DNA of 58,827 nucleotides. Origin: a virus. The notes beneath the pieces were generated by a model. The model was not told the origin of the DNA and searched no databases. It saw only the letters and a program-made list of their open reading frames with translations. Position 1 is the stretch's first letter; each line of letters opens with the position of its first letter. The DNA lies in the IMG/VR virus record IMGVR_UViG_3300021500_000001, positions 1 to 58,827 of that record; one strand, given 5' to 3'. Position numbers and translations under genes: made by a program. Below are positions 27,898 through 56,558 of this stretch, one piece after another.

Positions 27898-27968
27898 GAT
27901 GTGGGGCTCTATACAAGGTTCGAACAAAGCAGATCAAATTTAACGTATAGATTGACAACTTAAAAAAT

Positions 27969-28670: not shown

Positions 28671-28672
28671 TA

Positions 28673-28831: not shown

Positions 28832-29742
28832 TGGCAAAGACTTTACCATATTTAAGATCATCGACCGGTCTTAATACAGTCGATGACCCGACAAGGATAA
28901 GATATAAATCTAAGTCCGGGATTTCTGATCTTGCGGTAGCTGTCAATGTTATGATTTCTCCATCAGGGAGAATTAATAGGCGCACAGGCAAGACTTTAAA
29001 AGTGCCTCTGGACGCACATAGTCTTTTTTGTGATGGAGGGGAATGCGTTTTTGTCCATGACGCCGGACTTTATTTGCTTGAGACAAATTTTTCTTATCGG
29101 CTTTTGCGGTCTCTTTCTTCCAATAATCTTATGGCTTACGCTCAAGTCGGTGACCGGATTTATTTTACAAATAATCAAACGTTGGGCTATGTAGAGAACG
29201 GTATTGCCTGTACTTGGGCAAAGACCAGGGATTATGTCGGGCCTGTTACACAGAGAATTTTTACAGGTCCTTTCCCGGGGAATCACCTTGCCTACCATGG
29301 TGGGCGAATATATATCTCCAAGGGGAATATATTATGGTATTCGGAATATGGTGCACTGGATTGGTACGATATGGCCCGCAATTTTTTTCTGTTTAATACG
29401 CATATCCGAATGATAAAGCCTATGACGTATGGCCTTTTTGTATCTACCGAAAAGGCAATATATTTTTTAAAAGGGCTGGTCCCCGGAGATATGGTGCAGA
29501 GTAAATTAACAACCTATCCTGCCCTGGAGTGGTCTGATGCGATAGATTATGTGGATGGTACAGACATACCTGAGTTTGAAATAAGTGGTCCTTGCGCTTT
29601 ATGGATCACCAGGGAAGGGGCAATGCTTGGGACACAGGAGGGTGGCGTAATAAATCTTAATAAAAAGAAAGTAGTTTATCCTCAAGGGACAAAAGGAAGA
29701 TCTTTGTTGAGGGGATTAAATTTTATTCATACCATAGAATAA
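28831..29742 (+). CDS. Tail hub protein, beta-propeller-like
   Basis: 303 aa. LRSSTGLNTVDDPTRI near the N-terminus, repeated strand units (VFVHDAGLYLLETNFSYRLL, VGDRIYFTNNQTLGYVENG, GGRIYISKGNILWYSEYG, GLFVSTEKAIYFLKG) and ALWITREGAMLGTQEGG give a propeller-like pattern as in podovirus tail nozzle or stabilisation proteins (T7 gp12 / P22 gp10-like roles). It is shorter than T7 gp12. Position after the adaptor supports this. Confidence 0.6.
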   Translation: MAKTLPYLRSSTGLNTVDDPTRIRYKSKSGISDLAVAVNVMISPSGRINRRTGKTLKVPLDAHSLFCDGGECVFVHDAGLYLLETNFSYRLLRSLSSNNLMAYAQVGDRIYFTNNQTLGYVENGIACTWAKTRDYVGPVTQRIFTGPFPGNHLAYHGGRIYISKGNILWYSEYGALDWYDMARNFFLFNTHIRMIKPMTYGLFVSTEKAIYFLKGLVPGDMVQSKLTTYPALEWSDAIDYVDGTDIPEFEISGPCALWITREGAMLGTQEGGVINLNKKKVVYPQGTKGRSLLRGLNFIHTIE

Positions 29743-36450: not shown

Positions 36451-38394
36451 ATGAGCACATGGGTGCCAGTACCGGAATGGGCAGAGGGCAGGGTTGGGGA
36501 TATTTCTATCCCGGGGAAAGTAGAAGATCGTTTCGATAAATGCCAAAGATTTGCAGAAGATCAGCTTGATACAGCACATGGTTTTATGCAAAATATGGAA
36601 AGCTATCTCAGGGAACTTGAAGAAGATGGAACCGATTTTGATGTTGAAAGATACCATCCTTATCCTCCCAACATAGAACCTATTGATTATAATGAAAGAC
36701 CTGTTCCTGAAGACTATCCATTAGAAGATATACCGGAGAACAGTATTGCACAGCCGGTATGGAGAGAAATTGAACATATAGAAGAGCCTGATTTTGACAA
36801 TTTTACTGAAACCGCTCCAGATACAAAAATAGAGTGGCCTGAACATGATGTTATTGCAAAGCCAACCGGTCCGGCAGCATTAGAATCTATCGAATATCCT
36901 GCTAAGCCGGATAACGAATTGCCGGCGGAACCTAATATTCCGGACATTACTTTTCCGACAGCCCCCGTTATTACAGTATCGGAATTTGAGGGAGAAGTGC
37001 CTACTGAAATATGGGATATGCCGGAAAATTTCTCATATACCGAAGCAGATTATGGTTCTGATATATGGGCTGATTTGCTTGCCAAGGTATTAAATGATAT
37101 CCGCAATGGCGGAACCGGTCTTGGTGCTACAATCGAAGAAGAACTTTATGATAGAGCTTTAGCACGACAAGAAACCGAGAACGAGCGTTTATACCAAGAA
37201 GTAGAAAATTATTTTGAGGCGAGAGGTTTCACCCTTCCTGTTGGCGCAATGGCCGGTCGCCTGGCTGAAGTTGCGAGAGAAGTGTCGAGGAACAATACCG
37301 AGATTAACTCAAAAATAATGATCGACCAGGCCCAGCTTGCCCAGGCCAATACACATTTTATAATTGAGCAAGGGATTCGGCTCGAAGGAATGCTTAGAGA
37401 TTTTTTCAATGCCCAGGCAAACAGAGCATTTGAAGCATCCAGAACTATTGCTCAAATAGGTATTGAACTATTTAATGCCAATGTAAATAAATTCAATGCA
37501 AAGGTCGGGGCATATCAGGCACAGGCTGCGGTTTATGAATCTAAGATCAAGGCTGCCCTGACACAGGCCGAAATATATAAAGCACAGATTAGCGCATGTG
37601 AAGTAAAATCCAAAGTAAACAAGAATACCATAGATATGTATAATGGAAAAGTTGAGGCGTTCAATATTATTGCCAAACTATATACTGCAGAAATGGAGGC
37701 AGTAAAAACTAAGGCTGAAGTGGAAAATTTAAAACTCGAAAGGTTTAACTTAGATATCCAGAATTATATTGCTCAGATTAATGCAGACAAAGCTATCTTT
37801 GATGCTACTGCTGCTGAGATGAATGGAAAACAAATAGAGATGCAGGTATATTCTGAAAAAGTAAAGGCATATTCCCAAAAAATAGAAGCTCAGAAAGTCA
37901 AACATGCTGCTCTTATTCAAAATGCAGAATTGAGCTTAAAAGCAAATCAATGGGATATAGAAGAGTATAAAGCCGAACTTGCGGGCTACGAAATGGAATT
38001 GAAGGGAACCTCAGAACGAAATAGCAAAATTTTGAATAAGCTTGAACAAGATACAGCAAAATATATCGCTGAGTTGGATTCTCAAAAAATGTATTTAGAC
38101 AAACAATCAAGACAGTGGGCGCTCGAAGTCGATAATGCACATTATCAACTAGATAGAGCGATAGCGCAGGTTAACGCATCGATTGAAGGATTCAAGGCTC
38201 TTAAATCGCTTCAGGGTGCAGGTGTTGAAGGGCTTATGAATGTAGGTGCCCAGCTAGCCGCAGCATCCATGAATGCTATTAATGCCAACGCTTCAATGGG
38301 GACTACGCAAACAGGCCAGGAAAGCGAGAGTTGGAATCATCACGAATCTATGACTGAAAGTCATCCATACGAAGAGCAAGCGCCACCTAGCTAA
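36451..38394 (+). CDS. Long coiled-coil virion protein
   Basis: 647 aa. N-terminal third is Pro/Glu-rich (IDYNERPVPEDYPLEDIPEN), then a very long helical/coiled-coil region (FNANVNKFNAKVGAYQAQAA, KVKAYSQKIEAQKVKHAALI) with near-repeating Ala/Lys/Gln units. The C-terminus (GQESESWNHHESMTESHPYE) is polar. Such proteins are common in podovirus-like genomes before the internal virion genes and may be tail needle or ejection proteins. GAGGTAAAACA precedes the ATG. Confidence 0.65.
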   Translation: MSTWVPVPEWAEGRVGDISIPGKVEDRFDKCQRFAEDQLDTAHGFMQNMESYLRELEEDGTDFDVERYHPYPPNIEPIDYNERPVPEDYPLEDIPENSIAQPVWREIEHIEEPDFDNFTETAPDTKIEWPEHDVIAKPTGPAALESIEYPAKPDNELPAEPNIPDITFPTAPVITVSEFEGEVPTEIWDMPENFSYTEADYGSDIWADLLAKVLNDIRNGGTGLGATIEEELYDRALARQETENERLYQEVENYFEARGFTLPVGAMAGRLAEVAREVSRNNTEINSKIMIDQAQLAQANTHFIIEQGIRLEGMLRDFFNAQANRAFEASRTIAQIGIELFNANVNKFNAKVGAYQAQAAVYESKIKAALTQAEIYKAQISACEVKSKVNKNTIDMYNGKVEAFNIIAKLYTAEMEAVKTKAEVENLKLERFNLDIQNYIAQINADKAIFDATAAEMNGKQIEMQVYSEKVKAYSQKIEAQKVKHAALIQNAELSLKANQWDIEEYKAELAGYEMELKGTSERNSKILNKLEQDTAKYIAELDSQKMYLDKQSRQWALEVDNAHYQLDRAIAQVNASIEGFKALKSLQGAGVEGLMNVGAQLAAASMNAINANASMGTTQTGQESESWNHHESMTESHPYEEQAPPS

Positions 38395-39189: not shown

Positions 39190-42100
39190 ATGTCTATAAA
39201 TGATATAATGAGGGAATTTGATAAAGGCGTAGCTGATATTGAGAGGGAAAAAGCTCTCAAAAAGCAGAGGTCCTTTGTATCCCCCGGCATTGTATCTGAA
39301 GAAAAAGCTCCAGAAATGCCTTCCCGTGATTGGTTAATGGACGAGTTTGATGCCGGGGTGAAAGAGATAGAGCAAAGCAGGGCAAAAGAAAAACCTTCTA
39401 TCGCTCCAGTAGAGTACGGGAAGGGTTTTGTTTCCGGTGTACGTCACAGATTGCCCGAAATGGTTGGTCAAGCAGGGCAGGCAGTAGGCATAGAAAAAGC
39501 TAAAAAATTAACTGAATGGGCACGCAAAGGAGAGAAGCCCAAAGAACATGGAGCTTTTTATCAAGCGGGTGAAATGACTCCTGCGTCTGTGGCTCTTCCA
39601 TTAACTCTCGGGACAGCAGCTAAGGGTGTTGCAATGCTGCCCGTTCCCGGTGCTCGTCCGGTAGCAGCCGGATTACAAGTAGCAGCATGGACTATCCCCG
39701 CCATTATGTTTGGCTTGTCTCAATTCCAATCTACAAAAGAAGAGGCTCAAAAAAGAGGAATTGACCCCGGTGCGGCTCCTTATATTACTGGTGGTATTGA
39801 GACGGCAGGAGAAACAGCAGGGAACTATGCTCTTACGAAATTACTCGGTCCTCTTGCTCCGGGTATTCCGGTTGCAAAGGCTGGGGTGAAAACACTTTTA
39901 AAATCGTCCCTTTTCCGGGCAGGTAAAACTTTAGCACTTAAAACTGTACCGACTGAAGTTTTGACCGAGATGGGCCAAAATTGGGGAGAAACTTTAACAG
40001 AGAAAGCTTACAAAGTTAGACCAGAGGCTAAACCTGTTGAAGAAGCAATGTCAGCTATCTGGCCTACGGTGATAATGACTCTGGTTGGCGGAGGTGCAGC
40101 TACAGGGATACAGCGATATCAATCAAAAGTTGTTCTAGATACGCTTCAAGACCCAAACGCAGATATAAGAAAAAGGCAGAATGCCGCTGATACAATAACC
40201 GGAATTATTCTCAGCCAGGAAGAGGCTGAGAATAAACCAATGGCTAAAATTTTCCATGATTATGCTGTTGATCGAATTGCAAAAAAAATGCCTATCAATA
40301 TTGAAAAACCGGTGGGCGAAATAAAAGAAGAAATTTTAAATGACATAGTATTGGGATATGAAAAAGGTGAGCAGGACATCGATCAAACTCAAAATTTAAT
40401 TATAGAAGGATATAGAAATCAACTCTTCGACGATAAAGACTTAGAGAAATTATCAAAAAAATCTCCTGATCTGAAAGATAAAATAGAGACTATCCGTGCC
40501 GCTGCCCGGGCTGGAATAGTTAAAGATACTTTAAGTGAAGCTATTCACCATGGACTTGCAACCGGTGAATTCAACGGTGAAGAATTTACGCTCGACAATG
40601 CCATGGGTTTTATTCGCAGTGGTTTAAAAAATAATATTTTTACAGATGAAGATGTTGATGAGTTTAAAGAAAAATATCCAGACCTTAAACATGAACTGAA
40701 TAATCTGATTGCTGAAAAAGTTGTTTCTGATATAGATTCGGAAGTTACCAGGTTTAAACCTGAACCTGTCGTTAAGACCGAAAAACCTGCGGACGAATAT
40801 GCTATAAAGGATATTGAAGACACTTATCTCAAGGCCAAGGAACGTGTAAGGACTGAGCCGGTATCCCTTCAGGAGCTACAAGAAAGATTTAAGGAGCGCC
40901 AAGGGCGTGAGGCCACAGAGAAAGAACAAAATGAACTGAACCGTATTTATGAAAAGGCTAAACGCAGATCACAACAGAAAAAAACATTTGAAGAAAAAAG
41001 AAAGACAGAAGAAGCTCCGCCGAAGACAAAGGAAGAATTAGAGCTTGAAGCTTATGAGCCTGAATTACCACTGGGAGTAACTAAAGTAAAGGCTGAGCAG
41101 AAAGCAAAACCGAAAGCGCCGGTGGTAAAACCGGGAGCAAAAGAACCCTGGGAAATGACAAAAAAAGAATACGAGTCTTCCCCGTATGCTAAAAACAAAA
41201 GTTATGATGTCGCTGTTGAAACATGGAAGGACGAGGGTAGAAAAATTACCCCGGCATATGGGAAGGAACCGTGGGATATGTCTCTCCCCGAATTTACGAA
41301 AGCCCTGAACGACGGGCTTGTTCCTCCTTTGGGGAAAATGAGCGGATCTGAAATTATAAAAGATTACGATAGATATGGCAGGAATAAAACCCAACATCGG
41401 TGGGCTATAAAATATGCTCTCAAAGAAGGCAAATTAACCCCGGAGAAATACGCCGAATTTCACGAAAAAGAGTATGGGCCTCTTGATGAATTTATGCCGG
41501 GAATAGCTGATAAGCAACCTAAGATCGAACCAAAAGAACCCAAAAGCGGCCCCAAAGCATTTTCGATATTAGGGGAGGAAATTTCTACCCATAAAAATAA
41601 TATTAGAAATTGGTTCAAAGAACCTGCTAATTGGGAAAATAAAAAAAGGCTAACTTACAAAGAGGTTGCTGAAAAAATAGCGGGTGATAAAGATGTTACA
41701 TTAAAGAAAGAGGAAATTCCGATAGATACATCAAAGCCATTAGGCAAAACTAAAGAAAAATATGTGGCTTATTATGATGGTAAAAGATTAAGAGAATTTC
41801 CGAAAGAGGTATACGATTATGTGCAAGAAATAGTTGAGAAGCCTAAAGAACCCCGGGGAATGACTACAGATGAAGCTATAGCTAAAGAGAAAAATAGAGC
41901 AATTGAAGCGGAAGCAAAGTTAATCCCCGAATTTAAAAACACTGAAGAGGCTCTGGCTTTTGGAAAAACTGCAACACCTGAACAAATCAAAGCTCTAAAA
42001 ATTAAAAGGGATGAAAGTTCAGTAAAGATAAATGCTTTAAAATCCAGGGGCGACATACAAGGCGCCATGGATGAGGCAGTAAGAGGGCAATTTTTCAGAG

Positions 42101-42345
42101 AAGCAATTGAATCTGCTAAGCTAAAAGCAGAGCCAAAAGCAAAGACTGAGGTAAAATCGAAGGCCAAAGACCCAGTATCTTTCCTTCTTTCTTCCAAGAA
42201 GAAAGCGGGCGTGAAATATGAAATGAAAGTAAAGGTTGCTGAGACAAATGAGATTATTACTGTGACTAAAGATGCAGGAGTAGCACTGAGAGAGACAAAG
42301 GAAGAGCTTGATAAAATGAACAAATTCCTGGAATGTCTGACATGA
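39190..42345 (+). CDS. Large internal virion / ejection protein
   Basis: 1051 aa. The start carries two copies of a short module (DIMREFDKGVADIEREKA and WLMDEFDAGVKEIEQSRA). Residues 110-190 and 205-300 hold Ala/Gly/Leu-rich segments (LPVPGARPVAAGLQVAAWT, SAIWPTVIMTLVGGGAATG) able to insert into membranes. The rest is charged and helical with KEPWEMT and KEPWDMS motifs, as seen in polyvalent phage proteins and in the giant protein downstream (KEPWETS). It probably enters the cell with the DNA. GAGGAG precedes the ATG. Confidence 0.65.
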   Translation: MSINDIMREFDKGVADIEREKALKKQRSFVSPGIVSEEKAPEMPSRDWLMDEFDAGVKEIEQSRAKEKPSIAPVEYGKGFVSGVRHRLPEMVGQAGQAVGIEKAKKLTEWARKGEKPKEHGAFYQAGEMTPASVALPLTLGTAAKGVAMLPVPGARPVAAGLQVAAWTIPAIMFGLSQFQSTKEEAQKRGIDPGAAPYITGGIETAGETAGNYALTKLLGPLAPGIPVAKAGVKTLLKSSLFRAGKTLALKTVPTEVLTEMGQNWGETLTEKAYKVRPEAKPVEEAMSAIWPTVIMTLVGGGAATGIQRYQSKVVLDTLQDPNADIRKRQNAADTITGIILSQEEAENKPMAKIFHDYAVDRIAKKMPINIEKPVGEIKEEILNDIVLGYEKGEQDIDQTQNLIIEGYRNQLFDDKDLEKLSKKSPDLKDKIETIRAAARAGIVKDTLSEAIHHGLATGEFNGEEFTLDNAMGFIRSGLKNNIFTDEDVDEFKEKYPDLKHELNNLIAEKVVSDIDSEVTRFKPEPVVKTEKPADEYAIKDIEDTYLKAKERVRTEPVSLQELQERFKERQGREATEKEQNELNRIYEKAKRRSQQKKTFEEKRKTEEAPPKTKEELELEAYEPELPLGVTKVKAEQKAKPKAPVVKPGAKEPWEMTKKEYESSPYAKNKSYDVAVETWKDEGRKITPAYGKEPWDMSLPEFTKALNDGLVPPLGKMSGSEIIKDYDRYGRNKTQHRWAIKYALKEGKLTPEKYAEFHEKEYGPLDEFMPGIADKQPKIEPKEPKSGPKAFSILGEEISTHKNNIRNWFKEPANWENKKRLTYKEVAEKIAGDKDVTLKKEEIPIDTSKPLGKTKEKYVAYYDGKRLREFPKEVYDYVQEIVEKPKEPRGMTTDEAIAKEKNRAIEAEAKLIPEFKNTEEALAFGKTATPEQIKALKIKRDESSVKINALKSRGDIQGAMDEAVRGQFFREAIESAKLKAEPKAKTEVKSKAKDPVSFLLSSKKKAGVKYEMKVKVAETNEIITVTKDAGVALRETKEELDKMNKFLECLT

Positions 42346-42680
42346 AAACGATATCGAAAAAAGACCTGGATAAATTAAGAGGCAAAGGCTGGGAGTTAAC
42401 ACCTGATAGTAAAAAGGCCATACGAGACCAGAACAGGGCCGCTATGCGATCTAAACAGGTCGAGGCTATAACAAGGCTCTCTGAAAGTGTGGACGGCATA
42501 AAGGATGCTTTGCGGGCGGATACCGGGAAAGATTATACACTTATCATTAATAAACTCATAAAGTCGATTAGTGATATAAAAATAGAGCCTGCACCTGCAC
42601 CGGAGCAGAAGGACTACAGATTTATTGTAAAACGAGGCCAGGACGGTCTCATAACAGAGATCGAGGCCCATACAAAATGA
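42342..42680 (+). CDS. Hypothetical protein, 112 aa
   Basis: MKTISKKDLDKLRGKGWEL, helical, with a Pro/Ala link (EPAPAPEQK) and a short beta end (YRFIVKRGQDGLITEI). Its ATG overlaps the upstream stop (ATGA), so I start here rather than three codons earlier. It overlaps the fibre gene in the same way. Confidence 0.65.
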   Translation: MKTISKKDLDKLRGKGWELTPDSKKAIRDQNRAAMRSKQVEAITRLSESVDGIKDALRADTGKDYTLIINKLIKSISDIKIEPAPAPEQKDYRFIVKRGQDGLITEIEAHTK

Positions 42681-44659
42681 CAGCAGTCAGAGTAATAGAT
42701 AGCCATTTGGAGCTTGCGGATATAGGCTTAAATACTCATGATCAGATAGATACTGAGCTGTCATCATTGAGGCATATATCAAGTTCAGCGGATTCTCCCA
42801 TGATAGTAACAGGTGGTGAAGTAACCGAGGGAACTAACGCCGGAACTTTTAAGGTAGCGGAGCTTACAGCCTTATTAAGGTCCACTGACAGCGCAATTGG
42901 AAATCTTGTATCTGTATCTCTTGCTGAGCATGATAACCAGTCCATACCGGTAGCGGATACAATATATATAATAAGCCTGAATTATAATGGTGGGTCTCCC
43001 ACTATAAGCCTGAGCGTATCGAATCCTTATAGCCTTGATAAAAGAAATATTCCTATTGGAAGAGTAATGAAGGATGCCGCAGGCACTGTACACTATATAA
43101 GTGGCGGATACAGATTTCAGGACGGAGTGGAAAAATTACATGACAGGGCAAGAACTACAAGAAAGATTGAGCTTGAAAGCGGCTCTACGATTGCTTATTC
43201 AGGCACAAATAATTTTACAATGACGGAAGGTGTGGCATATGGTGGGATTAACAAGTTCTTACTTACTTCGTACAATTCTGCCACCACCACATTCACTCCT
43301 GTTTATCAAGATGGGGGTGGTGGTTGGACCGAGGGAGCTGCTTCTAATGCAATAGATCACACTCACTATGACGATGGTAGTGGGGTTTTGGCAACTATAG
43401 GGAATAATAAATATGGGTGTTTCTGGGTTTACAAACATATAGGGGATGGACACGTCTATGTTCTCTATGGAAGAGATTCTTATACCCGGGCAAAGGCAGA
43501 GGCGGAAGGTGAACCAACCAGACCTGATCATCTCATACACTTTGGCCTTCTCGTTGGTAAAATAATAGCTCCAAAAGCAGGTGGCAGTTTTACCGAAGTA
43601 CAAATGGTAACTGATATTTTCTTTACTGGTGTAGCGGTAGCTGATCATAACAACCTTGGTGGATTGCAGGGTGGAACGCTTGGCGAATATTATCATCTTA
43701 CATCCGCAGAATTAACTAAATTAGGAGGGATAGCAGAGGGAGCCGAGGTCAATGTTCAATCTGATTGGGATGCTGTTGACGGGGACGCACTTATTCTAAA
43801 CAAGCCATCAGATATAACAGATTTATCAGGGCATAATGTAACTGAACTCTCCGATGTTACCGGAGCAGGTAGCGGGATAATAATATCTGCCGCTGAACGG
43901 ACAAAGCTTAATGGAATTGAAGAGGGTGCCACTGCCGATCAGACGAAAGCTGATATCGACAGTCTGGGTTTATCGCACGATAACTTGGTAGATGTCTCAG
44001 CCGACGATCATCATGCAGAATTGCATAGCATAGCAAGCCATAATGATACCTCGGCTACCGGAGCCCAGCTTAATACTCTAACAAATAACTCTATTGCCGA
44101 TACTTTGCATAGGCATTCCGAGCTTGTGGCGAGTGACGGCAGTCCTGATCCTGTTTTGAGTATTAATGCCTCTGGACAGGGTGAAATAATTGGAAGTACT
44201 TATCCTGTCTTTAGAAATACAAGAACTACCTCTGGTTTATCTTCAGCTGGGGCTTGCTTTGATAATCTTCTTAAAACATCAGGGGATATGGCTGATGGTT
44301 TTGGACCAGGCATCACACTCTCCATACAGGATGATACAGCCGGACCTTATTACATAGCTGGAATCTATGCAAGAAGAAAAGGAGCGGATGACCAAGGAGA
44401 TTTGTTGTTTTACACTAATGGCGTAAGTTGGGGTACTAAAATGATCTTAACTTATGATGGTAAACTCGCTGTTGGGACGACTTCACCTGTTACGTCTGCA
44501 AAATTACAGCTTGATTCCACAACAGGAGCTTTACTCCTGACAAGAATGACAACAACACAAAGAGATGCTTTAACTGCTGTCAACGGAATGATACTGTATA
44601 ACTCAACTTTAAATAAATTTCAAGGTTATGAAAATGGGTCATGGACTAATTTAATATAA
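42677..44659 (+). CDS. Tail fibre protein
   Basis: 660 aa. Typical fibre repeats include HLTSAELTKLGGIAEGAEV, ISAAERTKLNGIEEGATADQ and SDVTGAGSGIIISAAERT, with HDNLGGLQG and HDNLVDVSADDHH. The distal end (KLQLDSTTGALLLTRMTT, ALTAVNGMILYNSTLNKFQ) matches the C-terminal part of trimeric phage fibres. The first half is beta-rich. It would bind the host surface. It is coupled to the previous gene (ATGA). Confidence 0.82.
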   Translation: MTAVRVIDSHLELADIGLNTHDQIDTELSSLRHISSSADSPMIVTGGEVTEGTNAGTFKVAELTALLRSTDSAIGNLVSVSLAEHDNQSIPVADTIYIISLNYNGGSPTISLSVSNPYSLDKRNIPIGRVMKDAAGTVHYISGGYRFQDGVEKLHDRARTTRKIELESGSTIAYSGTNNFTMTEGVAYGGINKFLLTSYNSATTTFTPVYQDGGGGWTEGAASNAIDHTHYDDGSGVLATIGNNKYGCFWVYKHIGDGHVYVLYGRDSYTRAKAEAEGEPTRPDHLIHFGLLVGKIIAPKAGGSFTEVQMVTDIFFTGVAVADHNNLGGLQGGTLGEYYHLTSAELTKLGGIAEGAEVNVQSDWDAVDGDALILNKPSDITDLSGHNVTELSDVTGAGSGIIISAAERTKLNGIEEGATADQTKADIDSLGLSHDNLVDVSADDHHAELHSIASHNDTSATGAQLNTLTNNSIADTLHRHSELVASDGSPDPVLSINASGQGEIIGSTYPVFRNTRTTSGLSSAGACFDNLLKTSGDMADGFGPGITLSIQDDTAGPYYIAGIYARRKGADDQGDLLFYTNGVSWGTKMILTYDGKLAVGTTSPVTSAKLQLDSTTGALLLTRMTTTQRDALTAVNGMILYNSTLNKFQGYENGSWTNLI

Positions 44660-45493: not shown

Positions 45494-45727
45494 ATGTTGT
45501 TCTCTATAACAATAGCAACGCAAGGATATATCGAGAGGGGAGAATGTCCTGCTCTCTGTATAGCTACCGATGGATTGCTTTATTGTCCGCCGATCCAAAA
45601 GGCCATACTTGATGTAGGCGGCGGGGTAATGGGCAAGGTACAGGAAGACTTGTACCGCTGGCGCAAAAGGGACGATAAGGAAATTATTGAAATTATTATG
45701 GGCATAGTTTTATCCGGGGGATTATAG
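45494..45727 (+). CDS. Hypothetical protein, 77 aa
   Basis: MLFSITIATQGYIERGECPA and DVGGGVMGKVQEDLYRWRKR. It ends directly before the ATG of the giant gene. A 40-codon frame starting four bases earlier (45490) overlaps it but is shorter and less protein-like. Confidence 0.5.
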   Translation: MLFSITIATQGYIERGECPALCIATDGLLYCPPIQKAILDVGGGVMGKVQEDLYRWRKRDDKEIIEIIMGIVLSGGL

Positions 45728-48700
45728 ATGGCATCTATTATAAATTGTTTCAAAATACATAAGAACCTATTCACGGTTGAAGAAAAAAAGGCTTTGCGCT
45801 TAGAATCCGGCAAGCTGGCGACAGAGAAAAAAATATCGTTCAAAGATGCCATGGTGCAGATTGTAACAGCCCACAGGGACGAACTTCAGGCCGAGTATGA
45901 CAAAATAATTGATGTTGTAAGAAAACATTACAAGTTGCCTGAGAAAGCAGTAGCTAAAGCTGAAGTTCCAAAAGCTAAGCCTGAGAAAAAAGAACCCTGG
46001 GAAACCTCCGACTTAGCTAACAATCCCAACATTCCTATTAGTTATGTCCAAGCCAAGAAGCAAGCGAACGGAAAATATAAGCTCTTCTTTACCGGAACTA
46101 CATCGGAAGTTTTTGAAGGCGAACTTTTTGCCTCGGCTAAAGAGGCACGATCATTCTTTAAAGCTCAACAAGCGAAGGCACAAGAGGCTGCGTCTAAAAA
46201 AGAAGTTGCCCCGGAAGTTCCGAAAGAAATAATTGCCAAAGATACTATTAATGGCAAGCAATATGAGTACAGGGTAGCAAAGATTAAAGATACTGAAACC
46301 CCTCAACTTACACATCATATTGAAATGCGACCTGTAGGTTCCAAAAATTGGGAATCGGCTCTGGTAGGCAAAGCAACATCAAGAAAAAATGCTATCAGAT
46401 TCTTGGCCGAGAGATACCACAGGGTAGGCAAAGATATCGCCGATCTTGAAGTTTTAGACCCTACGCTCAAAAAGTTTGTAGATGAAGAAATAAAAATAAA
46501 GGAAGAAAGGGCTGAAAAGGCAAGAAAGGCTGAAAAGGCAAGAAAAGAAAAAGAAGAAGTTGCCCAAACTGAACGTCAAGAGCGGCAAAGATTTATAGAT
46601 AAGGTTAATAAAGAGAAAATAACAGGCAAAAAAACAACGATTTCAATAAAATCAGACACAGAAGAATCGCTAAGAATAGATGCTGTTGTGTTTGGCGATT
46701 ACGCTGTTCATAACAGTCTTGGGACACAGGGATATACTGTAACACACATACCATCAGCTCTTAAAATCTTTAGCACTGATACATTAAAAGAGGCTCGAAC
46801 TGCTGCAAAAACATTTTTTCTTTATGCTGATAAAATGCTGGCAGATAAAAAATCGATGTCCAAAGAAAGCATTTCAAAGCTGAAGGAATTAGTGAAAATC
46901 TTTACCAAAGGGGAAGCCATACCGGATTTTGTAAAAAAGATCGAATCTAAAACGGCGGCAAAAAAAGAGGCAAAGCCTACCGCAAAAAAAGCAGTAGGGC
47001 AAAGAAGCAATAGGAAGGGCGTTGAATTTTATAATCCATTTAATGTAAAAACTCGGAATAAAGTAATTGAAGGTAAACTTAACTCCGCAGGAGAAGTGAG
47101 ACAGGGTTACCGTGACGGCTTTTTTACCCAAGGACATTATGCCGTAAAATTACCTGAAGCACCCAAAACTAAAAAACCATTGTTAAAAGGGAAAGATGTC
47201 CCTGATATTCTCAGTATTGTCCCCAGCAAAACAACGGATGCACATTTTGTCGGTGAGCTTAAAGCAAGCGAATCAACTGTTACCCTTGCTCATGCCGTGG
47301 CGCCTGGTATACAAGATTGTTTTTTTAACGCCAATTATATTGACATTATTCTTACAAGATATCCTGATGCAAAATTCAGTATTGGCCCGAAGGTATACAA
47401 CGGACGATATAACGGACGACTTGGAATTTTTACTGTAGATAAGGATGTTGTCGGTCTTGTTATGTCAGCTCATGTTGATGCCAACGAGATGTTGGATGAA
47501 ATACAAAAAATAAAGAATAAAGAAAGTGGTATCAAGCTACCTGTTGCAGAAGCCGGGGAAGCAGAAGGGCGGGGATTATATGGAGAAAGGACTGGACCCA
47601 AAAAAGAACAGCCTTCGCCTGAAATCAAACCTATTAAAATTAGCGCACAAGCTGAGCGTAGGATTAATACATTAGCTGATAAGAAAAATTTAACTGTTGC
47701 GGATTTGAGCGATCCTCAAAAAGGACTTGATCCAATCGTCCAAGGTAATCCCATTGGTGCCTTAAAGTATGCTGAAGAGCAAGCCGGAAGAGACTGGGAA
47801 GATCAAAACTTCAAAAGAAATTTTGGCAAAATTGCAAAATATATTGAAAGAAAATGGCCTACTATCAAGGAACCTGAAGCCGAGTATACAGTAGCAGAGC
47901 CCAAGCATTTAACAAAAAAAGAACTATTAGAGAAAAAACGCCTTTTCCGAAAATATGGCGCAAAAATTAAAGGGAATAAAGTCATTTTGTACCGTGGAGG
48001 GGATGTCCCAAAAAGTCAATTAAAAAAATTAAGATATGGAGATTATTTATCTGCTTCAGGCAAAGGCCCCGATATTACAGGAAATGAGGGAGCTGATGCA
48101 TATGGGAAAAATGTAGTTCGCTTTGAATTACCTGTCACTGACGTAGAAGTGACAGGGGCCGGGGAATTCCAATACAAAGGCAGATCGGCATCTCTTGAAA
48201 AAGGTGGAAGGAAATATCCTATTGCAATATACAAAGCATATAATGATTATCACGGGTCTAATTTTACGGCAGAAGAAATAGATAAAGAAGATGATGTAAG
48301 AAGGGCTGCATCTATGGCTTTGCCGGGTGGCCGTGAGGAATTTGATGCACTTATGGCTAAACATCTGAAAGAAAAAGATGGTTTGGGTATCAAGGAATCT
48401 GAAGCCAAGTATGTAGTAGCAGAACCCGAGCCATCCATGTACTCAGCTCTTACTCGTGCAGCCGAATCTCAAAGATTTCCAGCTAAGTTACCTGCCAAGT
48501 CCATCATAAATCGTCTCAAAAAAGCCCCTGGCGTAAAGCAAGCTGAAATAGATGCCGTGGGCCTCGCTGAATGGCTGGAGGGCAAAGAGAAGGTAGCTAA
48601 AGATGATTTGGTGAATTTCTTGAGGATGAATGAAATTCGGGTTGAGGAAGTTGAGAAAGGTGCTCTTGATATAAAACTAAAAGATATAAAAGTTAATTTT

Positions 48701-51700
48701 CGCCAACCATCTACTACCCAAAGATATGCAACAGTTACATATAATGGTAAAAATATTTATGGAGGAGAAATTGAAGTAGGTTTAAATGAATCTGAAGAAA
48801 GTGTAAGGCTTAATGCAAAAAACTGGTTGTTAGAACCGGATCAACGTGGTACTGCCACAGAGATAACAGATTTGCCCAAATTCTCCGAGTATACTCTCCC
48901 CGGCGGTGAGCCTGGTAGTTATCGGGAGTTAATTCTTAAAGTACCTATAGATATTGTTCGGCAAAAGCAATACAGCAAAGCAAAATCCGAATGGTTTGAT
49001 AGGCACATGGGGCCACAACCAACAGAAGAAGAAGTTGAGCAAAGTGATTTTTTTGATGGAAGAATTTTAGATGAGGCATTGGAAGAATTAAGAGAGGATA
49101 TAAAAACAATACCTCAATCAGTAACCTACAAATCTCCCCACTGGGAGGACGAGCTCAACGTAATAGCCCACATCCGAGGCGATACTCGTACAGTAGACGG
49201 CAAACGAATCTTTCATATAGCTGAATTTCAGAGTGATATTTATAGCCGGATAGTTGAACTCGAAGCCATTGAGTCCCCCACTGATACTCGGGAAAAAGAA
49301 CTTGCCAACCTAAAAAAGCTCTTCCCCTGGGGCGGAAACTGGCACGAACTCGTATCCAAGAAAGCCATTGAGTATGCCATACGGAATGGCTTTGACGGCA
49401 TTTCATGGGATACTGCTAAGACACAGGTTGACCGGTGGGAAAGTGCGCTAAGGAAGAGTGTTGATACAATAGGTTGGAGAAAAATATCAAAAAGAGATCA
49501 GGTCCGAATAACTGGTGTTAAAAACGGAAAAAGTGTTTTTAGTAACTTGATCTCTCTCTATGGCGAAACCACAATAAGCGGTCAGCGTGTAACCCTCAAT
49601 AATCTCATAGGTAAAAATCTTGCTAATAAAATCCGGGAATCCTCTAAGACTACAGGTAGTTTTGAAGGAGAAAATCTTACTATTGGTGGGGAGTTCTATA
49701 AAATTCTCTATGATCAAAGAATCCCTGGCTTCTTAAAAAAGTATGGGAAAAAGTGGGGAGCAAAAGTCGAAATAGATAGCCTGGAAACCGGGCAATATAG
49801 AGTAGATGAAGCAGGCGGCGGAAGATTCAGGATTGTTCGTGGTGATGGATACGTATTTGAAGACAGCACTGGAGACCAGTTATTATTTAATACAGAAAAA
49901 GAAGCTACTGAGTACATTGACAGCCAAAAATTTAAAAATATTCATTTCATGGAAATAACTCCCCGTATGCGCCAAGCCATTCAGACCTATGGCCAGGCTA
50001 TTATGGAGCCCGCTGGCGAATACAGACAATCCGAAATCGATTTAGCCTTTGGAGGTAAAAAGAAAGCAGATGAAGCAATCGAATCAGTCGCAAAGAAAGT
50101 CGATTTTATATCCAGAAGAAGAGTGCCGGATCGGGGTCGGGTGGACAAATCAGGGTCCACGTCCAAAGTTGCTGAAGAAATCAGGAAAAACAAGCGTGTG
50201 GATCTTACAGGGAGAAAGCTCACAAAAGGAAAAGAGTCACAAGAAATAGCCGAACTTTTCCAGGTCTATCGTTCTCCCAAAATGGAGATATTGCATGCTA
50301 TCTATACCGCTGAGGACGGAACTATTCTGGCCCACAATGCCATAACTTCCGGCCAAATAAATTATATTCAGCCAGAGAATGCGGCACAGTGGATTTATAA
50401 ATTAAAATCTGCTGCTGAGCGTTTAGGTGCCTCAAAAATACATTTCTTACACAATCATCCATCCGGCAATCCTGCTATGAGCGAAGAGGATATCGCCCTG
50501 GCAAATATGCTGCACCGTAAAAAAATAGGCAAAGATTTGATGGGTGAATTTGTTGTCATAGACCATGGTAAATATTCATTCATACCAAGATATGATGCCG
50601 GAGCGTTATGGGCTGAAGAAGGAACCTATAAGGTTCTCCCCGGCACTGGTGAATGGATGCTCAGGAAGGGGCCTAAATTAACCGGGCCAAAGGTAGTGGC
50701 GGCCTTTGGCAATAGCCTCTCTCATGATAAATCGAAGGCATGTTTTGTTTATGTCGATAACAATAATAACGTTATGGGCTGGTCTGCCCATGACAATACA
50801 ATATTAAAGAAAAGCGTCCCTGAGCTTGAGAAAGTTTTAAGACAGCAAGCAAGAGCACATGGTGCAAAAAGGACTGTAATTATAGCAGAGGACATGGCAT
50901 TGTTTGAGCCGATTGCCGAGCATGGGGATGTGGGAGACTGGTTGCTGGATGCATTGGATGCCAAGGGAAAAAGTTTAAGAGAAACTGTTCCGAAGGCATT
51001 TGAAATAAAAATGCGGCCAATAAAATCGGCAAGGGTATTGTTTTCAAAAAAACCTTTGCATGGTAAGGGTCTCACAACATCAGATGCTCGCCAAGAACTT
51101 GTTGAACGCTTAGGGGAAAAAGCGACAAATACCCTTCTCACAAAAGGGCTTGTGCGACTTATCACAAAAGAAGAAGCAGACAGAAAAAAGGGTTATACTC
51201 TTCCATCCAATATCCAAGGATTTTATACAGATGGAATTTCATATCTGGTTACAGATAATATTTCCCCGAGGAGAGTATGGAATGTATTGATGCATGAGCT
51301 TGGAGTTCACCTTGGGTATAACAAAATCTTTGGTGAAAAACTCGCCAAGGAAGTCTTCAGGGCTTTTGTAGAGAATAATGGGAAAAAGACTCCATTGGGC
51401 AGGGCCGTAAGCCGAGCTATGGGTAGAGTACCTTACGGAACACGTGCGGACCTTGTTAATGAGGAAGCTGTGGCTTATTTCATTGAAGATCATGCCAATA
51501 TAAATCTGCCCTTGTACCGGAAAATTATTGCACGCATGCGGTTATGGGCTGTTAAGTATCTTGGTGTCAAACCTGATGTTTTTGTGATGGATGATTATGT
51601 GGCACTAGCCGCAAGTGCTATGAGAGGGGAAATTAGAGAAGCTTATAAGGCGCCTGTGAGAGCAGGGGAAAGCCGGGAGGTATTTTATTCTACTAAAGCA

Positions 51701-54700
51701 TGGCACGGAGGTCCTTACGCCTTTGATAAATTTCAAGTGGAAAAAATAGGCGAGGGCGAGGGTGCCCAGGCATTCGGCTGGGGTCTATATTTTACTGACA
51801 AGGAAGATATCGCTCGCAGTTATGCGGAAATGGCTAAGAGTAAATTTTTGCTATTTGATGGCAAACAAATAACGTATGACGATTTAGCTAACAAAATTAG
51901 CAAAAAATATGGTAAACAATATGAAGACCTTATATCTAGGATAATATATGATTTTAAATCTGGTTATCTAGCTGATGACATTCTGGAGCACGTAAAACAA
52001 TTTAGGGCATCTGAATATGGTATAGCAAAAGAAATAGTCGAAAAAATGGAACATATATCATTAACGGATGTTAATAGATGGACAGTAAAAGTAGGTGGAG
52101 GTATAAAAACCGAAAACAAGATGTCGGAAAAGGAACGTTTAGCATTATTTGATATACAGGGGCGCATAGGTTGGTACAAAGAAAATGTAAAAAATCCGTT
52201 AGAAAAGGTTAAGAGTGAGCTGGAGCGGACAGTCTCAGCGCATAAGGAAAGAAAACTGAAGGCGGATAGGGAAGACTTGCGCAAAATAAACAAAATAATA
52301 AATAATGCACAGGCTGGACTTGATGTAATTAAAAAATATAATCTTAGCGTTACTTTTAATAAACCTATAAGGAATCTTTACAAGGTAACGCTTCATAAAG
52401 GTAAAACGCCTGATGAATATGATTATTTGAGTTGGGAAGATAGCATAAGCAAAAAAGAATTAAGTAAAGTAATGTCTCAGGCTGAAAAAGAAGGAATTGC
52501 AAAAGATCTACATGGAATAGTAACTAAAGAAGATTCAGAAAAACGAAATAAGCCAAATTTGAAAAGTAAATATGCTACGCCTGAAGTTATAGCTGCTACA
52601 AAAAATGCAGGATATGGATATCAGGACTTAACACTAGCTGTTGAAAACGATGAAAATGCTTATCTTTCCATTATGGAAAATTTCCCCGAAATGGTAGAAG
52701 ATGAAGAATGGGCTGAAAAAGTAGTAGTGGATATTTTTGGAACCGAGACTCTAACATCTCCATCTGATGGCGAAGCTTTATACCGAAAGATAAGCGAAAT
52801 ATTAGGCTCAGATAAAGAAGCTTCACTATTTCTTCTCCGAGCCGGTATTGATGGGATAAAATATCCGGCAGGAATTTTAAGCGGTTACGAAGAAGAAGGC
52901 GTATTTAATTATGTAGTCTTCGACGAGAATGCCATTACTATAGATGAGCACATTCGCTACTCTATAGCAGAGAAAAAGGACCTCCAGTCCTGGGCCGATG
53001 ATCTTATTAAAAGTGCAAAAGACCCAAGTTTTATCCTTGATACTCAGAAAGCATCCCCTGAAAAGATCAAAGAATCATCCATTAAAATATTGGCTGATCT
53101 TGATTTTGAAAAGCTGAGTCAGCCTGCTAAATCCTTTTTGGCGGGCATGAGTCCGAAAGGCAAGGGAGCGGGAGCAGCTATTGAGAAATGGCTGGCCTCC
53201 CCGGAATGGTACCAGCACCCGGTTCTTAAAAAGATCGTTGGACATGCCCTGAATAAAGCTGAAAAATTCCATACTACATTTAATGAATTCAATGCTGTAG
53301 ATGATCCTTTTGCTGAATACGATACAGTAGCAAAAACTCTTGAAGCTCTGGCCCGAAAGGGTGGAATAAGTAAAGCTGCCTTTACCCTGGGCCGAACCTC
53401 AGCCGATTTCAAAAAACTTGAAGCTCTCCTGGATGATGCCGATGTATATGGCGAAAAACACACAGTCGAAGAACTAAGGAAAAAAGGATATAGTGAAGAT
53501 GTAGTACATGCATGGTCGATTGTCAGGGAATCTTACGATAAGCAACTCGATGCCCTGATTAAACCGATGAAGGACCTTGTTGCCAAAATTAAGGAACAGG
53601 CTGCTTTTATGGGGACCGAGCCTGTATATCCCGACTTCGGTGATTTTATTATCGAAGGCAAAAAACGTAGACTCACCCTGAAAGAGGCTGTTATGGAGAT
53701 GGGCCGTTACAAGGGAACATACTCTCCTCGTATCCGGGATCGGGGGGCATGGGTAGTTACCGGAAAGAAAAAGGGTGTTATCTCGGAGGGCGGGGACGAA
53801 TATGTACGTTATAATAGGAAAACAAAAAGCTTTGCCAATCTTTTGAGAGATAAATTAAAAAAGGAAGGCTTTACCGATATTAAAGTTGAAAAAGAATCAA
53901 GACTCCCTGAAGAAACTTTCCAAGCTGTTCGTATGGCCGAGATGGGAGCTATAATCGAACATGCAGCCTCAAAAGGACTTGATAAATATGATGATAAAAT
54001 GCAAATGGCCTTTATGGACGAAATTATTACGGCATCCGCTGACCTGATCAAGTCCAGGGGTGCAAGGGCCACTATGATTCGCCGTAGGGAAGGAGCCGCT
54101 ATCAAGGGATATATAACTAACCCCTTAACAAGATTTATAAGATACACGGGGACCAATGCGGCAGGCATAGCCAAAAAAGAAATGGCCGAACGCATGATTA
54201 GGGATTTATACGGTACTTATGTGAACGGCAAAAAAGTTGGCGGTATTGATGTAGCAAAAGAGAGTGAGGTTCATTCCCTTGCAAGAGCATATGTCGAAGA
54301 ACAGTTGAGGAATACTGAAACCGGAGACCGGATAATCGGGGTAATGAAGGCACTTACTACTTTCAAGTTTTTAGGCTTCAACCCACGGTCTGTCCTGGTT
54401 AACATATCGGCACTTGCAACATCCGTACCAATATCTTTACATACTTATATTATGGATGGCAAAGGGAGCCTCCTGAAGGTTGGCAAAACTTTATCTAAAA
54501 GCTGTAAAGATTATACAAAGATTATGGCCGGGAAGCGCCTCGCAAATGTGGATGAGCAAACTTTCATCGATGAATTCAGAGCAAGTGGTTACACTAATGC
54601 TCAATATACAAGAGACGCTATAGGAAATGTTCAGGGAGCTTATGGAACGGCATGGGCGAAACTTATGGGCGGATCAATGTATGTGTTCGGCAAGTCTGAA

Positions 54701-56134
54701 GAGTGGGTGCGTGGAGGGACTGCTCTGGCTGCTTATAGATTATGCCGAAAGCAAGGTCTCTCTCATACTAAGGCAAGCACCAAAGCGATAGAAGCAACTG
54801 CTAAAGCCCATGGCACTTATGGGAAAGAAACCCTGTCGATGATAGCCTGGGGTAAAGGGGTAGGGCGCCTTGGGCAAGCATTTTATACTTATATGAAATT
54901 CCCACACAACTACCTTCAGATGCTCTATGACGCCGGTATCAGGAAGAAAAATATCAAGGGTGTCATATTCGGCATGGCCGCTCCTGCAGTACTCGGCGGG
55001 ATAGCGGCGGTCCCGATGTATTCAACTATTATGGCCATAGCAAATGCCTTAATGTCTGCGATAGACGATGATCGTGACGCAGAAAAATTAGTATATGATA
55101 CCATCAATGAATATATAGGTAAAACAGGGGAAGAAACTATAAGGGGCGGTATCCTTGGCCTTCTTGATGTTGATATATCAGGGTCGTTGGCTATGGGGCC
55201 AGGGGCTATACCTACAAGCCTGTTTGAGTTAACGGGTGCGGTTGGCGGCATGGCAGAAGATATTTATAAGGGCGTTGGTTATGCAGTAGAAGGTGAGTAT
55301 GGAAGGGCCTTTGAAAAATTGACGCCGAAGGTCATAGGAAATATTGCTCTTGCTATTAGAGAAACAAGGGAAGGTGCGACAACAAGTAAAGGTAACAGAG
55401 TGTGGGACGAAGAAGGCAGACCTTATATGCCGACATTGAGTGAAACAGTTAAGAGGGGCCTCGGCTTTCGGTCCGCTCGTAGGGCATTACTTACTCAATC
55501 AACTTGGGTCTCGAAGCGTGAGGAGCAAAGATTCAAAAAAACACGATCCGACATTTATAGAAAAATCAAATACCTGACAGCAGGGTCAGAAAATGTTATA
55601 ATAAATAAAGAAGTAGGAGATGAAATCAGCAAATATAATAAAAATGCGTTAAAGACTAGTAATGTACCGCTTATTACTCCAGCGTCCATCGAACTTCAAA
55701 TGGAAAGGATGAGGACCCCGACGACGAAACAGAAAGTCAGAGTCACAGGTTGTGAGAGAGCTACAATGTTTGAGGGCGATATATGGGCAGGGGCTTTAGG
55801 TGTCGTTGATGAAATGGACGAAACGCAAAGCGAAGTTAAAAGGTTGTCGGACGCTGGTATCCTTAAATATTCGGCTCCGCCTTCCAGGAACATAAACGCC
55901 GGATATGGTATAAAGGTTAAGTTGGATGATGACCAGTATAGACGGTATGTAGCAGACACAAGTGCAATAATCAAAGAGGCCGTTGATCGGTTAACACATC
56001 GTTCGGAATGGCGAAGGTGGAACGACAAGAAAAAAGCTTTTGCGATTAAAACAGTGATTAATAAGGGACGGAAAATTGTTAGAGATCGTCTCAAAATAAC
56101 AATATTGAGAACAAAATTAGAGAGAGGTAAATAA
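45728..56134 (+). CDS. Giant polyvalent protein: ART-like, JAB/RadC peptidase, zincin, ART-PolyVal
   Basis: 3468 aa, one unbroken frame. About 1-150 helical with KEPWETS; about 750-810 ART-like (ILYRGGDVPKSQL, YGDYLSASG); about 900-985 the common polyvalent segment (SMYSALTRAAESQRFPAKL, EIRVEEVEKG); about 1050-1240 YRELILKVP ... FHIAEFQSDIYS ... WGGNWHELVSKKAIEYAI; about 1326-1410 RIPGFLKKYGKKWGAKVE and FMEITPRMRQAI. JAB/RadC metallopeptidase at 1516-1630 has HNHPSGNP and SEED intact. Zincin HELGVH near 1856. ART-PolyVal at 1992-2415 (WHGGPYAFDKF, GWGLYFTDKED ... NYVVFDENAI). About 2870-3100 is the LPD38-like, hydrophobic part (FNPRSVLVNISALA). Likely injected to modify host proteins and blunt defence. 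Confidence 0.85.
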   Translation: MASIINCFKIHKNLFTVEEKKALRLESGKLATEKKISFKDAMVQIVTAHRDELQAEYDKIIDVVRKHYKLPEKAVAKAEVPKAKPEKKEPWETSDLANNPNIPISYVQAKKQANGKYKLFFTGTTSEVFEGELFASAKEARSFFKAQQAKAQEAASKKEVAPEVPKEIIAKDTINGKQYEYRVAKIKDTETPQLTHHIEMRPVGSKNWESALVGKATSRKNAIRFLAERYHRVGKDIADLEVLDPTLKKFVDEEIKIKEERAEKARKAEKARKEKEEVAQTERQERQRFIDKVNKEKITGKKTTISIKSDTEESLRIDAVVFGDYAVHNSLGTQGYTVTHIPSALKIFSTDTLKEARTAAKTFFLYADKMLADKKSMSKESISKLKELVKIFTKGEAIPDFVKKIESKTAAKKEAKPTAKKAVGQRSNRKGVEFYNPFNVKTRNKVIEGKLNSAGEVRQGYRDGFFTQGHYAVKLPEAPKTKKPLLKGKDVPDILSIVPSKTTDAHFVGELKASESTVTLAHAVAPGIQDCFFNANYIDIILTRYPDAKFSIGPKVYNGRYNGRLGIFTVDKDVVGLVMSAHVDANEMLDEIQKIKNKESGIKLPVAEAGEAEGRGLYGERTGPKKEQPSPEIKPIKISAQAERRINTLADKKNLTVADLSDPQKGLDPIVQGNPIGALKYAEEQAGRDWEDQNFKRNFGKIAKYIERKWPTIKEPEAEYTVAEPKHLTKKELLEKKRLFRKYGAKIKGNKVILYRGGDVPKSQLKKLRYGDYLSASGKGPDITGNEGADAYGKNVVRFELPVTDVEVTGAGEFQYKGRSASLEKGGRKYPIAIYKAYNDYHGSNFTAEEIDKEDDVRRAASMALPGGREEFDALMAKHLKEKDGLGIKESEAKYVVAEPEPSMYSALTRAAESQRFPAKLPAKSIINRLKKAPGVKQAEIDAVGLAEWLEGKEKVAKDDLVNFLRMNEIRVEEVEKGALDIKLKDIKVNFRQPSTTQRYATVTYNGKNIYGGEIEVGLNESEESVRLNAKNWLLEPDQRGTATEITDLPKFSEYTLPGGEPGSYRELILKVPIDIVRQKQYSKAKSEWFDRHMGPQPTEEEVEQSDFFDGRILDEALEELREDIKTIPQSVTYKSPHWEDELNVIAHIRGDTRTVDGKRIFHIAEFQSDIYSRIVELEAIESPTDTREKELANLKKLFPWGGNWHELVSKKAIEYAIRNGFDGISWDTAKTQVDRWESALRKSVDTIGWRKISKRDQVRITGVKNGKSVFSNLISLYGETTISGQRVTLNNLIGKNLANKIRESSKTTGSFEGENLTIGGEFYKILYDQRIPGFLKKYGKKWGAKVEIDSLETGQYRVDEAGGGRFRIVRGDGYVFEDSTGDQLLFNTEKEATEYIDSQKFKNIHFMEITPRMRQAIQTYGQAIMEPAGEYRQSEIDLAFGGKKKADEAIESVAKKVDFISRRRVPDRGRVDKSGSTSKVAEEIRKNKRVDLTGRKLTKGKESQEIAELFQVYRSPKMEILHAIYTAEDGTILAHNAITSGQINYIQPENAAQWIYKLKSAAERLGASKIHFLHNHPSGNPAMSEEDIALANMLHRKKIGKDLMGEFVVIDHGKYSFIPRYDAGALWAEEGTYKVLPGTGEWMLRKGPKLTGPKVVAAFGNSLSHDKSKACFVYVDNNNNVMGWSAHDNTILKKSVPELEKVLRQQARAHGAKRTVIIAEDMALFEPIAEHGDVGDWLLDALDAKGKSLRETVPKAFEIKMRPIKSARVLFSKKPLHGKGLTTSDARQELVERLGEKATNTLLTKGLVRLITKEEADRKKGYTLPSNIQGFYTDGISYLVTDNISPRRVWNVLMHELGVHLGYNKIFGEKLAKEVFRAFVENNGKKTPLGRAVSRAMGRVPYGTRADLVNEEAVAYFIEDHANINLPLYRKIIARMRLWAVKYLGVKPDVFVMDDYVALAASAMRGEIREAYKAPVRAGESREVFYSTKAWHGGPYAFDKFQVEKIGEGEGAQAFGWGLYFTDKEDIARSYAEMAKSKFLLFDGKQITYDDLANKISKKYGKQYEDLISRIIYDFKSGYLADDILEHVKQFRASEYGIAKEIVEKMEHISLTDVNRWTVKVGGGIKTENKMSEKERLALFDIQGRIGWYKENVKNPLEKVKSELERTVSAHKERKLKADREDLRKINKIINNAQAGLDVIKKYNLSVTFNKPIRNLYKVTLHKGKTPDEYDYLSWEDSISKKELSKVMSQAEKEGIAKDLHGIVTKEDSEKRNKPNLKSKYATPEVIAATKNAGYGYQDLTLAVENDENAYLSIMENFPEMVEDEEWAEKVVVDIFGTETLTSPSDGEALYRKISEILGSDKEASLFLLRAGIDGIKYPAGILSGYEEEGVFNYVVFDENAITIDEHIRYSIAEKKDLQSWADDLIKSAKDPSFILDTQKASPEKIKESSIKILADLDFEKLSQPAKSFLAGMSPKGKGAGAAIEKWLASPEWYQHPVLKKIVGHALNKAEKFHTTFNEFNAVDDPFAEYDTVAKTLEALARKGGISKAAFTLGRTSADFKKLEALLDDADVYGEKHTVEELRKKGYSEDVVHAWSIVRESYDKQLDALIKPMKDLVAKIKEQAAFMGTEPVYPDFGDFIIEGKKRRLTLKEAVMEMGRYKGTYSPRIRDRGAWVVTGKKKGVISEGGDEYVRYNRKTKSFANLLRDKLKKEGFTDIKVEKESRLPEETFQAVRMAEMGAIIEHAASKGLDKYDDKMQMAFMDEIITASADLIKSRGARATMIRRREGAAIKGYITNPLTRFIRYTGTNAAGIAKKEMAERMIRDLYGTYVNGKKVGGIDVAKESEVHSLARAYVEEQLRNTETGDRIIGVMKALTTFKFLGFNPRSVLVNISALATSVPISLHTYIMDGKGSLLKVGKTLSKSCKDYTKIMAGKRLANVDEQTFIDEFRASGYTNAQYTRDAIGNVQGAYGTAWAKLMGGSMYVFGKSEEWVRGGTALAAYRLCRKQGLSHTKASTKAIEATAKAHGTYGKETLSMIAWGKGVGRLGQAFYTYMKFPHNYLQMLYDAGIRKKNIKGVIFGMAAPAVLGGIAAVPMYSTIMAIANALMSAIDDDRDAEKLVYDTINEYIGKTGEETIRGGILGLLDVDISGSLAMGPGAIPTSLFELTGAVGGMAEDIYKGVGYAVEGEYGRAFEKLTPKVIGNIALAIRETREGATTSKGNRVWDEEGRPYMPTLSETVKRGLGFRSARRALLTQSTWVSKREEQRFKKTRSDIYRKIKYLTAGSENVIINKEVGDEISKYNKNALKTSNVPLITPASIELQMERMRTPTTKQKVRVTGCERATMFEGDIWAGALGVVDEMDETQSEVKRLSDAGILKYSAPPSRNINAGYGIKVKLDDDQYRRYVADTSAIIKEAVDRLTHRSEWRRWNDKKKAFAIKTVINKGRKIVRDRLKITILRTKLERGK

Positions 56135-56135: not shown

Positions 56136-56558
56136 ATGGCAGGCTCAGCTACTATAATATTCAGCAAGATCGACACCCCTTATACTGGCACTCATGGGCT
56201 GGTCAAGGTACATATTGCGTGGGTCGGAGATTCTGGCGATGGCTCGGTGCCGGAAACGGCTTTTGATTCAACTGATACCGTTGATATCCTTGGCAGATAT
56301 TGTGCCTTGGGAGTAACGGTCCCGGATGACACTGCTGCTCCATCTGATAACTACGACATTGAGATACTTGATGAATATGGGTGCGATATTTTTGGTGGTG
56401 AACTCCAGAACAGGGATACCGCTAACACGGAGCAAGCTGTGCCAAAGATCGGTAATGCTTATGGAACTCGGCTATGTGCTGGAGGAATGACCTTTAAATT
56501 GACAAATAATACGGTCGGTTCGGCAAAGGGCGAATGTATATTATATTTTGAAATGTAG
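56136..56558 (+). CDS. Beta-rich virion-type protein, 140 aa
   Basis: MAGSATIIFSKIDTPYTGTH, beta strands with GYDIEILDEYG-like turn (NYDIEILDEYGCDIFGG) and ends GKGECILYFEM-like. A phage particle protein by composition and by position right after the giant gene. GAGAGGT precedes the ATG. No family is named. Confidence 0.6.
   Translation: MAGSATIIFSKIDTPYTGTHGLVKVHIAWVGDSGDGSVPETAFDSTDTVDILGRYCALGVTVPDDTAAPSDNYDIEILDEYGCDIFGGELQNRDTANTEQAVPKIGNAYGTRLCAGGMTFKLTNNTVGSAKGECILYFEM

Follow-up and report, generated by a model that had tools for sequence, protein, structure and literature searches.

The virus record analysed here encodes a giant protein of 3468 amino acids, and the evidence supports its classification as a phage-type polyvalent protein: a RadC domain, a zincin-like domain, an ART-PolyVal domain and a PLxRFG tail are found in one viral frame, in a late-operon position. 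Polyvalent proteins are characterised by at least two disparate activities in one chain of a virus or conjugative element, and by a zincin-like metallopeptidase (MPTase) and/or an ART-PolyVal domain with an H-Y-D triad; the domain content of the giant shows both features. The protein class, proposed to travel in the virus particle and to enter the host with the DNA, is already known, and the giant itself is unsurprising, being ordinary in most respects. Here, I report two additions: RadC-bearing giants are present in phage ejection-protein loci, contrary to the published division, and a domain referred to below as region D is well delimited, widespread and unnamed, with an enzyme-like invariant set, and is now accessible to expression and assay. 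The two findings concern what, apart from DNA, is injected by phages.

The window, that is, the whole stretch of DNA analysed (58,827 nucleotides), is a complete IMG/VR virus record. Re-reading the open frame from the sequence gave a single frame of 3468 codons at 45728-56134, its coordinates and length agreeing exactly with the first-pass annotation; the chance of an equally long stop-free run, estimated from base composition, is about 1e-104. The motifs listed there were found in the translation as well, namely HNHPSGNP at residue 1575, SEED at 1585 and HELGVH at 1856, together with WHGGPY at 1992, GLYFTD at 2019 and NYVVFDE at 2394 for ART-PolyVal. The gene is the last large one of the late block, 3' of a tail-fibre gene, and this gene order places the synthesis of the giant late, with the structural proteins. 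The features are as follows (window coordinates, strand, description):

36451..38394, +, counterpart, by homology, of the structural-block gene preceding the giant one in F116-like phages
42677..44659, +, tail-fibre-like gene (by homology), belonging like the giant to the late block and preceding it
45728..56134, +, gene of the giant polyvalent protein (3468 aa), occupying 17.7% of the record of 58.8 kb (open frame, domain matches)
45989..46177, +, small module, residues 88-150
46955..47527, +, conserved unnamed domain, residues 410-600
47930..48397, +, putative first ART-like segment of the first-pass annotation, residues 735-890, unsupported
48413..50131, +, region D, unnamed domain, residues 896-1468
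50237..50581, +, RadC-type JAB domain, residues 1504-1618
50687..50923, +, putative second JAB-like repeat, residues ~1654-1732 (predicted secondary structure, alignment)
51077..51532, +, zincin-like metallopeptidase domain, residues ~1784-1935, HExxxH at 1856-1861
51695..52939, +, ART-PolyVal domain, residues 1990-2404, with an insert of ~270 aa
52952..55711, +, C-terminal region, residues 2409-3328, holding the tail-700/PLxRFG domain (2697-3313)

RadC and region D

In the Pfam search of the giant, RadC (PF04002) scored 35.3 bits (cut-off 22.1). The RadC fold was recovered by Foldseek, the model of residues 735-1934 matching PDB entry 2qlc (E 3.5e-5, probability 1.00, TM 0.71). When the protein is aligned with two further giants from viruses, no variation is seen at E1520, H1575, H1577, S1585 and D1588, which leaves the E/HxH/S/D site intact, and the JAMM pattern HxHx7SxxD arose in none of 400 shuffled copies. 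Profile match, fold and JAMM metal site, the marks of RadC membership, are all present, and the intact JAB/RadC motif read earlier from the sequence is borne out. Further along the same model, residues ~1654-1732 are predicted to form a strand-strand-helix-strand-helix unit with its elements ordered as in the RadC domain and lacking HxH; this unit may be a degenerate second copy of the JAB.

RadC-type JABs have been argued by Iyer et al. to lack the groove for a ubiquitin tail, processing of nucleic acid or nucleotides being likelier (PMC5512222). By analogy, nucleic acid or nucleotides are likelier substrates of the RadC domain of the giant than proteins are, and for this reason the two different metallopeptidases with which the protein had been credited are reduced to one: the zincin stands as a plausible processing protease, whereas the JAB is of the type argued not to be a peptidase.

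Iyer et al. list RadC solely for the polyvalent proteins of conjugative elements (PMC5512222), so that its occurrence in phage giants extends their catalogue. Besides the present protein, RadC was found in three further viral giants (loci L021, L076 and L089). Those of L021 and L076 join RadC and ART-PolyVal in one chain and lie 3' of tail-tube and internal-virion-protein genes, in T7-like ejection-protein loci. In the plasmid collection no match for the RadC segment was obtained, the matches being to the zincin and ART only. The published division, with RadC confined to conjugative-element polyvalents, does not hold.

At L089:2810-16171 a viral protein of 4453 aa carries a 2H phosphoesterase at the cut-off of the Acb1 (anti-CBASS) model, a PBECR5 nuclease, and region D directly before RadC.

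Region D (896-1430/1468) matches about 50 viral loci, including Pelagibacter phage HTVC028P (gp34), Nostoc phage Nsp-JY18 and a Dolichospermum phage giant (L006:5868-13031) that contains two region-D copies and four ART-PolyVal stretches. Among 31 members, Pfam gave no convincing family match, nor any match to GNAT. Seven positions are invariant (H1138, E1166, Q1168, S1169, D1170, P1200 and W1205), and G, Y, E, H, R and K occupy near-invariant ones; the invariant set looks like an active site, which makes region D a candidate enzyme. An alignment of six region-D sequences proved too diverse for scanning. AlphaFold2 produced a model of fair quality (pLDDT 77, pTM 0.69); against a viral structure library this model gave 24 matches at E < 0.001, all of them phage proteins and several annotated as polyvalent or ART-PolyVal-like, and against the PDB nothing at E < 0.001. 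The PDB leaders are GNAT acetyltransferases at weak scores (best E 4.9e-2, low TM), and an acetyl-CoA binding motif was not identified in region D; the fold may be called GNAT-like at most weakly, as a lead only.

The first-pass annotation had regarded the long N-terminal region (1-740) as a strong candidate for new domains. In general the expectation of new domains was sound; the stronger case is 896-1468, which had not been singled out. It is a tentative proposition, and a rather doubtful one in its full form, that region D constitutes a new family of enzymes, perhaps GNAT-like transferases that have diverged strongly, delivered from the virions of tailed phages whose hosts are marine, cyanobacterial or other organisms (the Pelagibacter, Nostoc and Dolichospermum phages included), and that with the RadC/JAB pairs phages deliver a second activity, which had gone unrecognised.

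Zincin, ART and the ends of the chain

The HELGVH of the giant is an HExxxH motif, one residue longer than the usual HExxH, a variant that Iyer et al. had already noted among polyvalent proteins (PMC5512222). HExxxH alone appears in 8% of shuffled copies; the zincin call therefore rests on the alignment of relatives and on the predicted strand-helix arrangement. The motif aligns with 11 viral domains, and the corresponding position of the relatives holds either HExxH or HExxxH, except that L035 reads KHEIRH in the alignment. In the model, the motif and E1912/E1913 lie on consecutive helices, strands and helices having pLDDT of ~80-90; the third zinc ligand is probably E1912 or E1913. Three strands, an HExxH/HExxxH helix and a further helix with a Glu ligand, as expected of a zincin-like domain, are all predicted. 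Although no Pfam zincin model matches the giant, alignment and predicted fold together confirm as zincin-like the domain first recognised by its HELGVH.

ART-PolyVal (PF18760) scores 22.7 bits in this protein against a cut-off of 31.2, since the insert splits the domain into halves at ~1990-2060 and 2340-2404. Both halves align with homologues, and the Pfam cut-off is passed by two further phage giants whose sequences align with this domain. The triad H1993/Y2021/D2399 is conserved in the alignment with nine viral homologues (Ser takes the third place in two), which supports the ART-PolyVal assignment. As to the claim of two ART-type parts, it is this one that has support. Residues 735-890 contain LYRG (754), YLSAS (773) and GEFQ (812), a combined pattern also met in 5 of 400 shuffles; their model, taken within a 1200-aa one, is of low confidence (pLDDT ~44-72), and no homologue was found for them in phages (E up to 10), among solved structures, in the fetched loci or by motif search. 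A second ART at 735-890 is not claimed here.

The tail-700/PLxRFG domain (NCBIfam NF032893, residues 2697-3313) is matched with E 4.5e-45 and 154.3 bits, the curated cut-off being 100. The literal PLxRFG hexapeptide is absent from the giant, so the assignment depends on the profile match and not on the motif. What had been described as a hydrophobic C-terminal part comes down to one hydrophobic stretch (~3075-3112) that lies within this named domain. PHROG matches are to the C-termini of phage giants of 2400-4600 aa, 'DarB-like antirestriction' ones included. Scans with the C-terminal region returned only L042 in the viral contigs and only L127 in the genomes; the L042 giant has 3743 aa, and that of L127 has 2716 aa, being ended by the contig edge. 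Both have their C-terminal 900 aa in common with residues 2409-3328 of the giant at 35-39% identity and differ in the other modules, which in L042 are LPD1, MuF_C and a second ART. A constant tail with variable cargo is the pattern expected under the polyvalent idea.

At the other end, the earlier view that residues 1-740 have no assigned fold holds, only two islands having relatives. Residues 91-141 align with residues 785-835 of the giant of 'Methanosarcina virus MetMV' (57% identity over 51 aa), and 410-600 align with the L042 giant (32-36% identity), which was the sole relative of 410-600 in scans of viral contigs and genomes. The rest of 1-740 was orphan in the searches. By eye only, the strand-strand-helix stretches at ~165-235 and 297-370 resemble the 88-150 module; a likeness of the end of 410-600 to a sliding clamp received no search support and was dropped. 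Pattern scans of the viral contigs with the whole protein and with the N-terminal region came out empty, as they required exact 8-mers; aligned pairs worked better.

Regions 1-88 and 600-900, for which no relatives were found, are what one might expect if the ORF were a chimera or an assembly artefact. Yet the frame is open over its 3468 codons, region D followed by RadC recurs in L089, and the order zincin, ART, tail recurs in L042 and in Pseudomonas phage F116. As these module orders recur in independent contigs, an artefact is rejected as highly improbable.

Known relatives, packaging and proposed role

With the polyvalent proteins of Iyer et al. 2017 (PMC5512222) the giant shares a large late-encoded chain, unrelated enzyme domains, a zincin, an H-Y-D ART and a C-terminal region of phage type; it differs from them in having RadC and region D, the latter not covered by Pfam. 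The PLxRFG protein of Klebsiella phage vB_KpnP_ZX1 has the same tail-700 C-terminus (~24% identity), whereas its cargo consists of a transglycosylase, a helicase, a methyltransferase and LPD39. Pseudomonas phage F116 (Hollowayvirus) has homologues in the same gene order as here: its orf60 presents zincin, ART-PolyVal and tail in that order and is preceded by a homologous structural gene, but it is only 1649 aa long, has LPD23, and is without RadC and region D. The DarB-like giants (P1 DarB and Burkholderia phage JC1 gp69) are likewise giant proteins in a virion-morphogenesis block, while their methylase-helicase dyad was not found in the present giant by Pfam search.

On these grounds I consider it fairly likely that the giant is a late-made phage polyvalent protein that is packaged, ejected with the DNA and cut by its zincin, the ART, RadC and region D then acting in the host. 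Gene position and relatives suggest that packaging in the virion and ejection with the DNA are most likely. As the mosaic build of its relatives in L042 and L127 suggests, the PLxRFG C-terminal region would be the constant packaging/ejection part and the preceding domains exchangeable cargo. After entry, the HExxxH zincin would probably cleave the chain into units, along the lines proposed by Iyer et al. The suggestion that JAB and zincin may together free the enzyme domains is hence plausible for the zincin and weak for the JAB, this being of the RadC type (PMC5512222). Cleavage is not a given, because N4 vRNAP is packaged uncleaved despite such a zincin (PMC5512222). By analogy with T4 Alt, the ART-PolyVal domain may ADP-ribosylate a host target, favouring the virus or blunting defence; the substrates of the RadC/JAB pair may be nucleic acid or nucleotides, and region D could be an additional, unnamed enzyme.

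A late-operon position is by itself no proof of packaging, and a protein made late might act in the producing cell, e.g. in processing or superinfection exclusion. This reading is improbable: JC1 gp69, whose homology to the giant covers the zincin only and not the tail, was detected in purified virions by mass spectrometry with 51 unique peptides (PMC9144972), the giant antirestriction protein DarB of P1 is packaged in the capsid (PMC9024508), and relatives of the giant lie in ejection loci.

The same loci bear on a strong rival reading, namely that the giant is mainly a structural/ejection protein, like T7 gp16, which builds or gates a DNA channel, its enzyme domains being passengers or of use at entry only. 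Relatives are found directly 3' of internal-virion-protein genes, and HTVC028P gp34, a region-D protein, adjoins an 'internal virion protein'. In phage PTXU04, gp25, the only polyvalent of that phage tested genetically, is required for plaques on a laboratory host (PMC11879866), and this need suggests that the structural/ejection role may dominate. Nevertheless, the catalytic sites of ART, RadC and zincin are conserved and the enzyme modules are swapped among relatives, so a mainly structural protein seems rather unlikely, if by no means negligible; such a role is moreover compatible with a catalytic one, the two not being exclusive.

The virus and its other genes

The capsid module is closest to that of MetMV: portal and major capsid protein are 57% and 58% identical, respectively, to their counterparts over their length, and the head/packaging block (19278-29739, 21115-26196) is 38-58% identical, in the same gene order. 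The window also encodes a phage lysozyme (12481-12954) with a signal-like N-terminus and a Pfam score above cut-off; the virus is therefore more likely a phage of a bacterial host. An archaeal virus, as the MetMV-like capsid might suggest, was set aside in view of this lysozyme gene and of the fact that the host of MetMV was predicted in silico (PMC7164591). Given a lysozyme gene in a window with a MetMV-like head block, the in silico archaeal assignment of MetMV may merit a second look. A short ORF of MetMV (L130:12502-12756, corresponding to MetMV 45501-45755) begins MNQNRKAFLSAIAKAEGTYGRGDDGYNVLVGG and, on visual inspection, looks like the beginning of a phage lysozyme, which would likewise favour a bacterial host.

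Upstream of the giant, a gene at 39190-42345 encodes a 1051-aa product homologous (31-36%) to the N-terminal residues 90-450 of the MetMV giant; what is a separate gene here is thus part of the giant in MetMV. Directly 3' of the giant, the gene at 56136-56558 is 32% identical to the one directly 3' of the MetMV giant. Finally, two DNA methyltransferases and a SNF2-type helicase, activities that in other phages are fused into polyvalent proteins, are encoded here by separate genes at 3331-5578 and 17686-18522.
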